Shown here in pieces: positions 3,801 to 32,232 of a DNA stretch of 32,232 bases. Where the stretch lies: positions 1 to 32,232 of the forward strand of contig JACMPR010000046.1 in NCBI GenBank assembly GCA_014377385.1, given 5' to 3'. Position 1 is the stretch's first letter, and each line of letters starts with the position of its first letter. The stretch is from Ferruginibacter sp. (lineage in GTDB: Bacteria > Bacteroidota > Bacteroidia > Chitinophagales > Chitinophagaceae). A model generated the notes under the pieces. It ran no database searches, was not told where the DNA came from, and was given only the letters and a program-made list of their open reading frames with translations. The position numbers and the translations under genes are program-made.

Positions 3801-4937
3801 GGAAGCCCGTTTTACAAAAGACTTACCAAACCTGTTTTTAACTTCATCGATTGCCTTGTATAGATCCAACTTTCGTTCAATATCATCAAAGAGATTCGTT
3901 TGCACCGCATCATTTGTAAGTTCACTCAGTTTTACGCCGAGCAGGCGGACGGCACGGTCTTTTTTATATAATTTTTGGAAGAGGTCTTTTACAACTGGGA
4001 TAATCGCATCATCTGCATTTGTGTAGGATATAGTTGTTTGACGGGATGTTGTTTCAAAATCAGGATACCGGATCTTTACCGCTACACAGCCTGCAACCTT
4101 TCCATCCTGCCTGAGTTCAAAGCATATTTTTTCGGTAAGCCGAACCAATTCCTTTTTTAGAAAGGAATTATCTGTCTTATTTTCTTCAAATGTATTTTCA
4201 GAAGAAATTGATTTTGCCTCGTGATAGGGTGTCACTTCACGCAAATGAATTCCCTGGCTTTTGTGCCAAAGATCAATTCCCCATTTACCAAATTTATTCT
4301 CCATTATCTCTGGTCCGGCTTCTTCAATTTGCCGGATCTTTTCTATTCCCATGGCCCTCAGAATAAGGTTTGTCTGCTCCCCTACCCCAGGTATATCGGC
4401 AACGGGTAAAGGCGCTAAAAAATCTTTTTCTTTTCCGAATGGGATCTGTAGAAAACCATTTGGCTTCGCCTGGTTCGTGGCCATTTTTGCCATCATCTTG
4501 TTGCTGGCAAGTCCAAAGGAAATTGGAAGTTTCGTCTCCTCAATAATCAGCTTTCTGAGATCGATAGTCCATTGCAATGGTTTGAAAAATTTATCCATTC
4601 CCGTGAGGTCAAGGTAAAATTCGTCAATAGATGCCTTCTCAAATAAAGGCGCTTTAGATGCAATGATCTGTGTTACCCATCTTGAATATTTACTATAGTC
4701 TGCGTAATGTCCTTTTATAAAAATTGCGTGCGGACAAAGTTGCTTTGCTTTAGCCGATGGCATGGCTGAGTGTATCCCAAATTTCCTCGCTTCATAACTA
4801 CAGGCAGCCACTACACCTCTTTCGCTTCCTCCTACAATTACAGGTTTACCTTTCAATGAAGGATCATTCAAAACTTCTACTGAAACGAAGAATGAATCGA
4901 GATCGAAATGTGATATGATGCGATGGGGGGAATTCAA
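3792..4937 (-). CDS. dinB: DNA polymerase IV (Y-family)
   Basis: 'ISHFDLDSFFVSVEVLNDPSLKGKPVIVGG', 'SIDEFYLDLTGM', 'SFGLASNKMMAKMATNQAKPNG'. Its 3' end overlaps the Rrf2 gene by 9 nt, convergently. Confidence 0.95.
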   Translation of the reverse strand: MNSPHRIISHFDLDSFFVSVEVLNDPSLKGKPVIVGGSERGVVAACSYEARKFGIHSAMPSAKAKQLCPHAIFIKGHYADYSKYSRWVTQIIASKAPLFEKASIDEFYLDLTGMDKFFKPLQWTIDLRKLIIEETKLPISFGLASNKMMAKMATNQAKPNGFLQIPFGKEKDFLAPLPVADIPGVGEQTNLILRAMGIEKIRQIEEAGPEIMENKFGKWGIDLWHKSQGIHLREVTPYHEAKSISSENTFEENKTDNSFLKKELVRLTEKICFELRQDGKVAGCVAVKIRYPDFETTSRQTTISYTNADDAIIPVVKDLFQKLYKKDRAVRLLGVKLSELTNDAVQTNLFDDIERKLDLYKAIDEVKNRFGKSFVKRASSG

Positions 4938-5044
4938 CAGTTAAGAATTGTCAATGGTGGAATTATAAAGTGAGAAATGTTTTGTCTCTCACAGGTATTT
5001 GGAAGTAAGACAAATGTCAATTGCCAATTTTTAACTTTCAACTA

Positions 5045-5572
5045 CTACCCATATATTTCTAACAATCCTTCCGGCAATTCTACATATACTTTTTTATTTT
5101 TCTTATCCAGCTTTATAAGATTTGCTTCATGCACCGGCAAAAGTGCTTCTTTGCCCTTGTAAAGAATGCTGCATAATATCTGGTGAGGTTGTTCAATAAC
5201 TTCAATTATCTCCCCAAGGTTTGTGTCGCCGTCAATCATTGAAAACCCCAATAATGCGATAGGTGCGGCCTTTGCAGCAAATTTTTTAAAATCCACTTCT
5301 TCCAGCCAGGCTTCCTTTGGTGTTAATTTACGGGCTATCTCCTTCGTATCAATTCCTTCCAGTTTAATGTAAGTTTCCGTGTCACTTTTGATGCTGGTCT
5401 TCTCAATAAAATAAGGTAAAAAATTATCTGTTGTTTGTTCAATAAAAATAGTTTCCAATCCCTTTAGCGTTGTTTTTTTGCCAAGGCTGTGTTGTAAAAC
5501 CAGTTCCCCGTGCAGGCCATAACTGGCTGCGAATTTTCCTATTTTGAAGTATTGCGGCATAATGGGATGCAA
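5045..5572 (-). CDS. rimM: Ribosome maturation factor RimM
   Basis: 'FKIGKFAASYGLHGELVLQHS' N-terminus, 'LPVHEANLIKLDKKNKKVYVELPEGLLEIY' C-terminus, and location downstream of rpsP. The start may be the ATG at 5560. Confidence 0.9.
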   Translation of the reverse strand: MHPIMPQYFKIGKFAASYGLHGELVLQHSLGKKTTLKGLETIFIEQTTDNFLPYFIEKTSIKSDTETYIKLEGIDTKEIARKLTPKEAWLEEVDFKKFAAKAAPIALLGFSMIDGDTNLGEIIEVIEQPHQILCSILYKGKEALLPVHEANLIKLDKKNKKVYVELPEGLLEIYG

Positions 5573-14510: not shown

Positions 14511-14723
14511 TTTTCGCGAATACTGGCACAAACGGCAGCCAAATAGTGCATATTAATTTTAATAAAAAAACTACCTGTTTTAACCGGAAATACCTATCTT
14601 TATTATGTACTTAATGGTTTTAGTTTCTTTGCTATTGGCTGAAGTAGCTTTTTTGAAGTCGGATTCAGTTCATTGTTAACAACTAAATCATTCTTTTTTT
14701 ATTATTTTTTAAACGTTTTTACA

Positions 14724-15179
14724 ATGAACATTTACGTAGGAAATCTAAGTTGGACAATGACCGATGAAGATTTAAGCAATCTTTTTACTCAGTATGGTAG
14801 TGTTACCAGCGGTAAAATTTTGAAAGACAAAATGAACGGCCGTAGCAAAGGTTTTGGTTTTGTTGAAATGGAAGACGATGAAGCAGCTCGTACTGCAATC
14901 GCCAACCTAAACGAAACAGAAGTTATGGGTCGTAAATTAATCGTTAACGAATCACAACCACGCCAGGAAGGTGAAGGTGGGTACAAGAAGCGCACTGGTG
15001 GCGGTGGCGGATATGGCGGCGGCGGTGGCGGACGTAGCAGCGGCGGAGGGTATGGCGGCAGCGGTGGCGGTGGCGGACGTAGCAGCGGTGGTGGATACGG
15101 CAGCGGTGGTGGTCGCAGCAGTGGCGGCGGCGGTGGTCGTAGCAGCGGCGGCGGCGGCGGATACAACAGGGATTATTAA
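14724..15179 (+). CDS. RRM RNA-binding protein with Gly/Arg/Ser-rich C-terminal tail
   Basis: RNP2 'IYVGNLSW', RNP1 'KGFGFVEM', then GGGG/GRSSGGG repeats. The ATG at 14724 is preferred over the listed start at 14673. Confidence 0.95.
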   Translation: MNIYVGNLSWTMTDEDLSNLFTQYGSVTSGKILKDKMNGRSKGFGFVEMEDDEAARTAIANLNETEVMGRKLIVNESQPRQEGEGGYKKRTGGGGGYGGGGGGRSSGGGYGGSGGGGGRSSGGGYGSGGGRSSGGGGGRSSGGGGGYNRDY

Positions 15180-23242: not shown

Positions 23243-26200
23243 TTAATAACATACCGTCATATTTATATTATTTCCTGCTGGTTCTGTTAAGTTCAACTGG
23301 TAGATGCCATGAGGTAACTTTTTATCGAATGTAATTGTTAGCGTACCACTTCCAACTTCATTTTGTATTCTACTAACAAGTAGCTCCTGTCCAAAGTTGT
23401 TGAGCAATCTGGCAACATATAGCCCCACTGGCTTATTGGTCAATTGCAATTTTACAATGCCATCAACAATAGGATTGGGAAATATTTTTATTTCCTGCTT
23501 TTCTTTTTCAAAAAACACTTTTACAATATTTGTATATGTTTTCTTGCCATCCTGATCGACGGCTTTTATACGATAATAATTCCAACCCGCCAATGGCTGC
23601 TTATCCAAAACAACGTAATTCTGACAACCGTTGTTCCTGTTGGGTAGAGTAACTGAAACGGTTTCGAATACTAAACTGCTTCCTGCACGTTCAGTTTCAT
23701 ACTGCTGTATGCTTATTTCATGTTGCACCTTCCAGTTGATATAGATGTCGTTATTTTTACGAATAGCATTTATTGATGTAAAAGTCACCGGCACCGGCGC
23801 AAGCGTAGCAGAGAATATGATCCTGAATCGGTCGGCTGCATAAGAACCTGCGACATTGTCTACTAAGAAACTGACCACACTGTTTCCATTAAAATCTAAT
23901 GCAGTTACCGTTTGAAGGTACTTGTCCTCCAGGAAACAAATTGATCCGGGATGCATTATTTGATTTGCATTAAACTCAAAACGGTAACGTTGACGTTTTG
24001 TATTTGTAAGGTTAAGCACCAATGTATCTTGTCCGGTTATACTATGTCTTTTTTCGACAACCAATAAAATATTAGCTTTTCTTATTGATAAGTTTTCAGC
24101 GTTATTTAAAGATTTCAGCGCATCATGGTCATCAATATTATTGCTATAGTTTTCATCAAAATTTATAAGCAGGCCGTCCGCCATGTACTCTGTATTATCA
24201 GCCTTCAAGCCAAATAAATTGATACGTAATTGCGCTGTTGCTGCCGCAGTATTTACAATAGCTCTGGAGTCGCTGCCAATTTTAGCAGCTTCATTAAAAT
24301 TAATACTGCCGCCTAACGCAGTTGCCTGTACAAGAAATGCCTGGCTACCTTGTATTAAATTTTGGGCGCTGCCGGCAGGTCCATAACTTCCCATTCCGGG
24401 AGTGACGGTATAATTACTCCCATCATAAGAAAATGTCTGGTAAGCTCCATAACCCGAGCTGTTTCCGAGAAATGGGTCCCATATGTAGAAAAAATCTTTT
24501 AAGCCGGATTTCGCTATGTTGCGCAAATCCACGAGCGAAGTATAAGGATTCCCTACGGAGATAAATTCGTTGGCATTTGCAACGATTGCCGGTTGATCTC
24601 CTGTAAACAGGTAGCCTTTGGTACGTAGAATAGTTGGGGTAGCAGGTGAAGTAAAAGAATTTGCAGTTCTATCGCCTCTTATAAATGTCATATATCCACC
24701 GGGAATTTCAATATCGCTGGCATTTGTATTGGTGATGCCTACCCAACTGCCTGTAGCTTGATCCAATTTTTTGATCGACGGGCCATTTGGAGAATAGCGG
24801 TCAAAACCATCGACATCCCATGTAGGACGATCACTGGTGATTTGGATTCCATAACCTGCCACGGGGTTAGAGCCAGTATTGGTTGCTCCTTCTTGCCAGC
24901 TATCCTTAATCGTTTGTGTGCTGTTTGTTGGGATAGACAGGAAGTACCATGCCTTACGTGCCGGGATATAATGCTCTACAGTTACTTCCCCAGTAATGGT
25001 ATTTCCCGTAATTACTCCAACGGTTGCAGTGTTAGATGCGGTTGATTTTAACGTCAACGCATCATTCGTATTCAATGTCATGCCGGTAGCACTGTAAGTA
25101 AGGGAATTATAAATATCCAGGGGGCCTGCAAGGGTAACTCCGGCTGCACTCAGGTTACTTATTATCAGATTATTTACCGCGTTATTTTGAAAAGTATTTT
25201 CAGCGATTACCTGGGAGGATGCACCGCTCATTTCTATGGTACCACTCCCGGCATTTAAAACGCCGGCATTTAAAATGGCTGCTTTTATTTGAAGCGTTGA
25301 ATTGATGGTTAATGAGGCATCGGCTTGTATGACTAACGAGTCAACAACTGCAACACCTGAGTTGATGATAGGGAATACTCTTCCGGGTAAGAGGGTTGTT
25401 GGTATCCATGTTCCCATGACACCATCGGGAACGCCCCTTGTCCAGTTAACCGCTGCAAACCAATCAGCAGTTTCCCCGGCTCCTGTCCAGGTCGTGTTTA
25501 TGGTACAACCCATAGGTATAGACGCAGTTACGCCATAAACAGAAACCGCGCCCGTGGTTGAAAACATCCTTCCATCCAGGATACCACCGGCACCCATAGA
25601 AATGGCACCATTGTGGGAGATCATTGTTCCTTTCATTGAAGTGGAAGCGGCCATAGATATGGCACCTTCTGCTACCCAAAATACGTTACAGGCCGAAGCG
25701 CCATCGACCAGCATGACTGAAGCAGAAGCTGCTGTAGTAAAGGCTCCTCCAATCTTAAAAATAAATATTGAATTGGGATCTCCCTGTCCATCCAACGTAA
25801 GTGTGTCGACGAACGATCCTGCTGCCGCCAACGCATATACGCCGGCATAAAGTATTTCCCCATTTCCCAGTACGGGCAGGTGAGCAGCAGTAGCCGTAAT
25901 AAAGTTCAACTGATTATATGCTGCCAGCAAGTCTATTGAACATTGTGTCGTGGTGGGATCTGCTGTATGCAGGTTACCATTTACAGCAGCGGAATTAAAG
26001 CCGGTGATAGCTCCTTCGTTTGTACCAATATCACCTGTAAACTGAGAAATGCCCGTATTGCCTACTGCCCCTGTAACGGTGAATAATACAAACTTAGCGG
26101 CTGTGCCTAAGTTGGGCGCCTGCAGAACAGCTGAATCAGCAAAAGGCAATTGAAGGGTTGTTGATACATTATCAACCGCAACCGCACCGGTAGTAGATAA

Positions 26201-26824
26201 CATTCTTCCTTCCAGCCTGCCACCTGCGCCAAGAGAAATAGCGCCATTATTGGCGATCAAAGTTCCTTTCATCGAAGTCCTTGCGGCCATAGATATTTCT
26301 CCCTCTGCTATCCAAAATACCCTACCCGCAGATGCCCCATTTACCAAGAGTATTGTTGCAGCAGCAGCAGTTGTAAATGCACCTCCTACCTTAAAAATAA
26401 ATACTGCATTTGTATCAGCTTGCGCATCAAGTGTTAAAACGGAAACCACAGATCCCGCTGCCGCTAACTGATATACCCCGGCATATAAGGTCTCCCCGTT
26501 CCCAAGTACAGGTACATGGGATGCCGTTGTAACGGCAGCGCTTAATTGGGTATAGGCAGAAAGTAGGTCGGCAGTACATTGAGCTGTTACTGCATCAGCT
26601 ATGTGTATGTTGCCGGAAACCACGGAGGTACCGAAGCCGGTAACAGCACCACTGTTGGTACCAATATCTCCTTTAATCCTGGAAATAGCGGTATTACCAA
26701 CGGCCCCCCCGGAAGTATAGAGTACGAAACTTGCTACACTGCCTAAGTTTGGCGCCTGGGCAAAAATGTTGTTATAAAAGAATAACAGCAAAATGATGGT
26801 ACCGACACTAAACACGTTTTTCAT
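23243..26824 (-). CDS. Large secreted protein with two tandem DUF3494 (ice-binding-like) domains and a T9SS-type C-terminal domain
   Basis: Start 'MKNVFSVGTIILLLFFYNNIFAQ'. Two copies of 'QAPNLG..A.FVL...GAVGNT.I....GDIGTN.GA.TGF'. C-terminal 'IKIFPNPIVDGIVKLQLTNKPVGLYVARLLNNFGQELLVSRI...GIYQLNL'. Confidence 0.9.
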   Translation of the reverse strand: MKNVFSVGTIILLLFFYNNIFAQAPNLGSVASFVLYTSGGAVGNTAISRIKGDIGTNSGAVTGFGTSVVSGNIHIADAVTAQCTADLLSAYTQLSAAVTTASHVPVLGNGETLYAGVYQLAAAGSVVSVLTLDAQADTNAVFIFKVGGAFTTAAAATILLVNGASAGRVFWIAEGEISMAARTSMKGTLIANNGAISLGAGGRLEGRMLSTTGAVAVDNVSTTLQLPFADSAVLQAPNLGTAAKFVLFTVTGAVGNTGISQFTGDIGTNEGAITGFNSAAVNGNLHTADPTTTQCSIDLLAAYNQLNFITATAAHLPVLGNGEILYAGVYALAAAGSFVDTLTLDGQGDPNSIFIFKIGGAFTTAASASVMLVDGASACNVFWVAEGAISMAASTSMKGTMISHNGAISMGAGGILDGRMFSTTGAVSVYGVTASIPMGCTINTTWTGAGETADWFAAVNWTRGVPDGVMGTWIPTTLLPGRVFPIINSGVAVVDSLVIQADASLTINSTLQIKAAILNAGVLNAGSGTIEMSGASSQVIAENTFQNNAVNNLIISNLSAAGVTLAGPLDIYNSLTYSATGMTLNTNDALTLKSTASNTATVGVITGNTITGEVTVEHYIPARKAWYFLSIPTNSTQTIKDSWQEGATNTGSNPVAGYGIQITSDRPTWDVDGFDRYSPNGPSIKKLDQATGSWVGITNTNASDIEIPGGYMTFIRGDRTANSFTSPATPTILRTKGYLFTGDQPAIVANANEFISVGNPYTSLVDLRNIAKSGLKDFFYIWDPFLGNSSGYGAYQTFSYDGSNYTVTPGMGSYGPAGSAQNLIQGSQAFLVQATALGGSINFNEAAKIGSDSRAIVNTAAATAQLRINLFGLKADNTEYMADGLLINFDENYSNNIDDHDALKSLNNAENLSIRKANILLVVEKRHSITGQDTLVLNLTNTKRQRYRFEFNANQIMHPGSICFLEDKYLQTVTALDFNGNSVVSFLVDNVAGSYAADRFRIIFSATLAPVPVTFTSINAIRKNNDIYINWKVQHEISIQQYETERAGSSLVFETVSVTLPNRNNGCQNYVVLDKQPLAGWNYYRIKAVDQDGKKTYTNIVKVFFEKEKQEIKIFPNPIVDGIVKLQLTNKPVGLYVARLLNNFGQELLVSRIQNEVGSGTLTITFDKKLPHGIYQLNLTEPAGNNINMTVCY
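25500..26758 (-). repeat. Tandem DUF3494-like domain pair (copy 1 about 26123-26758, copy 2 about 25500-26122)
   Basis: The two 'QAPNLG' anchors lie 636 nt (212 codons) apart, in frame; the protein similarity is obvious across the full unit. Confidence 0.85.
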
Positions 26825-27466
26825 TTTATTTGGATTATATGGAAAAAAAGTATAGCCTGACCTAAGCCGGCAGAAGTGTAGCAAAGTTTACTTGTTGCTT
26901 AAAAAAGCAGCAAGTGCATAGCCTTAATAGTACATAAATTTTGCCCGGCTGTATGCCGGTGATGAGGTGTGTTAATGTGCTGAGGTTTATATGCTTCGCT
27001 TGCTTGCGGCTTGCCTGAACTAAAGAAAAAAAAACTTCATAGGTATGAATATGAATAAAGAAATTAAGATTTTGGTATGCAGTTGTGTTGAAGAGCACGT
27101 TATATAACACCAGGATAACTTATTTATTGTTTCTTTTGACTTTAAATATATTATCACTCCTGTATGAAACGGCATTTTTTAAAAATATGCTTTTACACAT
27201 GGAGCCGGGAGATTTTCTAATGAACGGTCAATGCCGCAACGGCGTGTGAAGATTTAAAGATAGCTGAGCTCACTGGCATCGAGTTTAGTTAAGCTGAAGA
27301 AGGGTTTTATAGCTTTTTTGCATGCTGTGCCTAAAAGGCAAAATAGATTTACAGAAAATGAAATTGGGTTTTCGCTAATCAAGGTCTGGCCCAGAATTTA
27401 TTTAGTAACTGGAGTTCCGTACAAGCCCGGGCTATTTTAATTTTAAGAGCCAATACTTTTTTCAAG

Positions 27467-31474: not shown

Positions 31475-32232
31475 ATGAAAACAAATGTTGCCCTTGCAAT
31501 CGTATTATCATTTTTACTAAATGTAACTTCGGCTCAAACAGTACAAACCTGTTTGACGGAAAGTTTTAGTGGTCAAACTGCAGGCTGGACCTATTCACAG
31601 GGAGCTCACGTAGGAAACTATACAAATCCTACAGCTGCATGCGCTGAAGACCGTGGAATTATTACACCCGGCGTAGGTGGCAATAACCCCTGCAATATTC
31701 AAACACCAGAATTCATTTCTACAGGTGCGACAATGGTAGGTTTAACTTTTGACATCATCGTACTTAATGCAAATTTAAAATGTGATACCTGGAAGAATTA
31801 TGCCTGTGAGACTTCTATTGATGTATTCTATTATGTGGCGGGGATAAGATACACCGGCATCATTGACCAGCCATTGCCACCAAACGGACCAGGAAATCCT
31901 ACATCGGTTTCCTTAAGCTTTAACCCTGGAAATAATTTACAGCTTGGCACAGCATATAAAATTGAGATGTGCTTCAAACCTAAAAGTGGCGTGGGAAATT
32001 GTATCCAGCAAAACACCAAATATGTGTTTGATAATTTCAGGAATTGCGAAACATCCAGCCGGGCTATAACCCCAAATGAACGTTCAGCAAGCAATGGACA
32101 TACTCAGCAGAATACGCCCATGAATGTAACGTCGGCTCAAACAGTGCAAACCTGTTTGACGGAAGGTTTTAGTGGTCAAACTGCTGGCTGGACCTATTCA
32201 CAGGGAGCTCATGTAGGAAACTACCCGAACCC
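31475..32232 (+). CDS. Secreted repeat-containing protein, 3' end beyond window
   Basis: Not in the ORF track because it has no stop within the window. ATG at 31475 gives 'MKTNVALAIVLSFLLNVTSAQTVQTCLTESFSGQTAGWTYSQGAHVGNYTNPTAACAEDRG...' and stays open to the window end. A second copy of 'NVTSAQTVQTCLTE(G)FSGQTAGWTYSQGAHVGNY' begins at 32123. Confidence 0.9.
   Translation, partial: MKTNVALAIVLSFLLNVTSAQTVQTCLTESFSGQTAGWTYSQGAHVGNYTNPTAACAEDRGIITPGVGGNNPCNIQTPEFISTGATMVGLTFDIIVLNANLKCDTWKNYACETSIDVFYYVAGIRYTGIIDQPLPPNGPGNPTSVSLSFNPGNNLQLGTAYKIEMCFKPKSGVGNCIQQNTKYVFDNFRNCETSSRAITPNERSASNGHTQQNTPMNVTSAQTVQTCLTEGFSGQTAGWTYSQGAHVGNYPN
31520..32232 (+). repeat. 603-nt in-frame tandem duplication (second copy truncated by window edge)
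   Basis: 31521 'atgtaacttcggctcaaacagtacaaacctgtttgacggaaagtttt...' versus 32124 'atgtaacgtcggctcaaacagtgcaaacctgtttgacggaaggtttt...'. Offset is 603 nt (201 codons), with about 9 differences in the 109 nt available (counted by eye). Confidence 0.92.

Follow-up and report, generated by a model that had tools for sequence, protein, structure and literature searches.

Adhesins that are exported by the T9SS and carry repeated jelly-roll modules have precedents in HagA and the gingipains. In Porphyromonas gingivalis the repeats of HagA, RgpA and Kgp disrupt short-read assemblies, and their adhesin modules are differently arranged between strains (PMC5266723). The gene described here resembles these three in its layout, with repeated adhesin-type modules ahead of a C-terminal sorting domain in what would be another surface protein exported by the T9SS. 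It differs in that it repeats one domain type directly, without a protease domain, and occurs in another family of the Bacteroidota. The K1 adhesin domain of Kgp (4itc) is among the structural matches of the repeat unit (Foldseek E 1.4e-6, TM 0.49-0.52), a similarity at the level of fold class only. By sequence the gene falls outside the cleaved adhesin family, which was absent from Pfam matches at E values up to 1 for the unit and up to 0.5 for its relatives. A literature search on tandem duplication in T9SS proteins returned nothing pertinent. We consider it well supported that the gene encodes a T9SS protein with at least three tandem, cysteine-containing jelly-roll domains and a type A C-terminal sorting domain.

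The window, i.e. the whole stretch of DNA that was analysed, is the complete contig C296 (32,232 bases), one of 394 contigs in a draft genome that is 84% complete with 3.7% contamination. Translation from the ATG at position 31475 (+) gives a reading frame that has no stop before the window end, and since the window end is the contig end, the gene is truncated by the assembly. The initial annotation had indeed pointed to a gene missed by the ORF track and running off the window. By eye, the N-terminus has the pattern of charged, hydrophobic and small residues that is typical of a Sec signal peptide. The start and hydrophobic part of this presumed signal peptide, MKTNVALAIVLSFLL (31475..31519, +), are present once and lie outside a direct repeat with a period of 603 nt (201 codons) that starts at 31520 and again at 32123. 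The repeat boundary is located exactly at codon 16 and splits the presumed signal peptide between MKTNVALAIVLSFLL and NVTSAQ. Repeat unit 1 (31520..32122, +) comprises the signal-peptide tail NVTSAQ, a domain of about 175 residues with 8 cysteines, and the linker TSSRAITPNERSASNGHTQQNTPM; the interdomain linker at 32051..32122 (+) corresponds, on comparison of the translations, to the linker of the last unit on contig C90, which leads up to the C-terminal signal. Of repeat unit 2 the initial 110 nt are present (32123..32232, +), after which it is truncated by the contig end. The two copies agree in 101 of these 110 bases (92%), far above chance, and the bases 5' of the boundary show no similarity. 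Eight codons differ, six of them synonymously and two with an amino acid change (S>G and T>P). The 201-codon duplication bounded inside the signal peptide, and the mostly synonymous character of the differences, thus stand as first described. Signal-peptide cleavage would take place only after the first NVTSA; the internal NVxSAQ is unlikely to be cleaved because no hydrophobic stretch precedes it.

Two other genes in the window were noticed. A secreted protein of 1213 residues at 23243-26884 (-) contains a tandem pair of ice-binding-like domains (PF11999, E 6.9e-70) that are 67% identical at a spacing of 212 residues, and by eye has a T9SS-like tail; the repeat gene has in it a neighbour that is likewise a surface protein with domains in tandem. 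The gene at 14673-15179 (+) encodes an RRM-like RNA-binding protein with a glycine-rich, repetitive tail.

An AlphaFold model obtained with unit 1 of the window and eight relatives was nearly all beta (pLDDT 84.2, pTM 0.81). A Foldseek comparison with the PDB retrieved Eph ligand-binding domains, MAM-containing astacin/meprin, CBM22, a porphyran-binding module and the Kgp K1 domain with E values around 1e-6 and TM scores around 0.5, which indicate fold class only and not function. The predicted fold is like that of MAM, CBM22, Eph ligand-binding and other jelly-roll domains, but at 10-19% identity no sequence relationship is demonstrated. Cysteines 11, 41, 88, 96, 161 and 176 of the unit are invariant in an alignment of eight sequences, which suggests that they form disulfides. 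The Cys-containing beta-sandwich that had been proposed from the letters alone is in agreement with this predicted structure. In Pfam and NCBIfam the unit has no family over the curated cut-off, with sub-threshold matches only, and a PDB sequence search gave no family for the unit. WD40-type matches in the PDB sequence search fall on the C-terminal domain and are irrelevant to the unit.

The weakest step in our reading is the role of the domain, for which we lean slightly towards a multivalent binding function, with a glycan or protein as the ligand, at the cell surface. The domain could be an enzyme or a purely structural surface spacer instead of a binding module. We regard this as rather unlikely in view of the structural neighbours, which are mainly binding modules, and of the larger relatives, in which the domain is accompanied by Ig/cadherin-like regions and by a C-terminal signal of the same kind, as is common in surface binding proteins.

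The distribution of the domain was determined by profile searches. With the own genome counted, it was found at genus level in 9 of 93 genomes, at family level in 21 of 399 and at order level in 10 of 399, and among these ten is one weak match from outside the family; a search of 396 genomes at the phylum level gave no further genome with the domain. There are about 25 relatives, nearly all from the same family, and the named ones are mostly metagenome-assembled genomes labelled Chitinophagaceae, with some labelled Sphingobacteriales or Bacteroidetes. Going by these labels, the genome of the window presumably also comes from an uncultured member of Chitinophagaceae. A contig scan with a single-protein query gave no match and one with an alignment query found eight relatives; phages and plasmids searched for the unit gave no match. 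The proteins of other genomes to which the profile was applied are single-copy, as opposed to the tandem copies here; a comparison of copy number across related genomes had been suggested at the outset. The nearest relative in layout is a protein of 293 aa from Bacteroidetes bacterium SZAS-16 of the same genus (G004; L012, identical to L017). It likewise has a signal peptide, one domain with 55-57% identity to the unit, a linker and a T9SS C-terminal domain, but it is single-copy and closer to a paralogue on contig C316 (70%) than to the repeated gene. In other relatives an Ig/cadherin-like region is inserted before the sorting domain. The C316 paralogue (L007 1-603, -) has one unit and is truncated by the contig end directly after the domain. 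The C-terminal remainder of this paralogue was sought in the genome and not located; four short sorting-domain proteins, at contig ends or in short frames, were considered as the missing end and rejected, being unlike the G004 protein by eye.

Within the whole genome the unit is confined to the 3' terminus of C296, the 5' terminus of C90 and, as a paralogue of 57-59% identity, C316. In a search at the DNA level the start of C90 is the sole other site of high identity (93% and 90%) and has the same orientation. The 603-nt period is also present on C90 (L006), which opens at codon 56 of a unit, continues with a complete unit and ends with 76 residues that match the sorting domain, the stop of the frame ending at 1275 (L006:1-1275). 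This C-terminus is a Por_Secre_tail (PF18962, E 1.3e-9; TIGR04183, E 1.3e-8), the T9SS C-terminal domain for which a search had been advised. We conclude that C90 probably is the off-window continuation of the gene on C296. No read joins C296 to C90 in this draft assembly, and the join is our inference; the assignment as T9SS type A cargo applies to the C296 gene only if C90 continues it. The genome encodes the T9SS translocon protein SprA (TIGR04189, 2403 bits against a cut-off of 200) and has 59 matches to the sorting domain. The product of the joined frames would accordingly be a Sec-exported, T9SS-dependent surface or secreted protein. The further copies that had been expected downstream appear to be the partial and the complete copy on C90, and the gene likely holds at least three copies of the unit; the number could exceed three. 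Should the truncated pieces on C296 and C90 belong to one unit, 55 bases are missing and the protein would have three units and about 694 residues. A 5-base overlap of the contig ends is about 18 codons out of register and was treated as chance. C90 also carries, at 4198-5256 (-), a gene for a protein with tandem repeats (CAGQSYTFGG...GCDS) that is truncated by the contig end and has an apparent gliding-type C-terminal domain.

The incomplete copies were scored at the sites that distinguish unit 1 from the last unit. On C296, the beginning of unit 2 is unit-1-like for 44 bases and last-unit-like after that, and the partial unit on C90 is mainly last-unit-like and then unit-1-like from about base 500. 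The clustering is non-random (runs test p 5e-5; breakpoint tests p 0.0025 and 5e-5). Both incomplete copies thus look like mosaics, unit-1-like at the ends and last-unit-like in the middle, a pattern that points to recombination between units. It fits with the two cut pieces being one middle unit, short of proof.

A different explanation for the two contigs is that they belong to separate paralogous genes, with one multi-copy gene beginning on C296 and a second one, located elsewhere in the genome, ending on C90. The assembler left the contigs unjoined, and examination of the gene neighbourhoods in relatives yielded no relative with both flanks together; one G010 contig that matched both flanks was discarded, since one of the matches was a 34-residue edge match and the relative orientation differed. 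Still, the assembly has exactly one start and one end that carry the unit, both cut within the unit and with matching orientations, and the linker and the mosaic pattern of the cut units suit a single middle unit. Two separate genes are therefore improbable.

The rates of nucleotide substitution (NG86) bear on how the copies were maintained. For the two complete copies, unit 1 and the last unit, dN is 0.040 and dS 0.427 (dN/dS about 0.09). The partial C90 unit gives a dN of 0.018 and a dS of 0.238 against unit 1 (dN/dS 0.07), and a dN of 0.018 and a dS of 0.225 against the last unit (dN/dS 0.08). These values indicate purifying selection and not an assembly duplication, and the initial annotation had favoured selection on both copies over an artefact from the mostly synonymous differences seen by eye. 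Tandem duplications commonly arise and collapse and the relatives manage with one copy, and the copies could thus be a transient duplication without functional value; we hold this to be improbable as well, since the dS of 0.43 and low dN between the first and last unit imply copies that were long retained and constrained. That a single copy in the cell was chained by the assembler from different strains is very improbable, even for a draft assembly with contig ends within the repeat, since the tandem junctions lie independently within both contigs with an in-frame PM/NVxSAQ that is not found in single-copy relatives, and since the complete copies differ by a dS of 0.43 at a dN/dS of about 0.1, which is above strain variation.

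The composition of the units suggests how the array of tandem domains may have arisen. The internal linkers (TSSRAITPNERSASNGHTQQNxPM) continue as the signal-peptide tail NVxSAQ, and in the C90 translation the linker of the last unit, TSSRPITPNERPGSNGNTQQNIPM, leads into the sorting domain (DHFTLSPNPT...). It follows that the duplication took in the full stretch from behind the hydrophobic core of the signal peptide up to the sorting domain. The unit had been described as the cleavage-site end of the signal peptide plus the mature domain, which holds for these two parts and is now extended with the linker before the C-terminal signal. The ancestor probably had the layout of the nearest relatives, with a signal peptide, one domain, a linker and a C-terminal signal. 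A tandem duplication would then have fused the linker end (QQNxPM) to the signal-peptide tail (NVTSAQ), by which the whole passenger was duplicated in frame and the hydrophobic core and the C-terminal signal remained single. No clear microhomology was seen when the junction was inspected by eye. Recombination between copies may later have partly rewritten the units, with crossing over or gene conversion between the first and last units producing the middle one, and purifying selection would have maintained them.

A broader proposal, which we put forward tentatively, is that the domain represents an uncatalogued family of jelly-roll binding domains largely confined to T9SS proteins of Chitinophagaceae, of which one member became a multivalent array here by copying of the whole passenger, with a unit number that may vary through recombination between copies as reported for hagA. 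Apart from the duplication route and the uncatalogued domain, this is an ordinary repeat-containing surface protein. Because each internal unit carries both the signal-peptide tail and the linker found in front of the sorting signal, the two endpoints of the duplication are still legible. The gene thereby makes readable a route from a one-domain to a multivalent T9SS cargo protein, and it points to a domain family that is so far absent from Pfam and NCBIfam.
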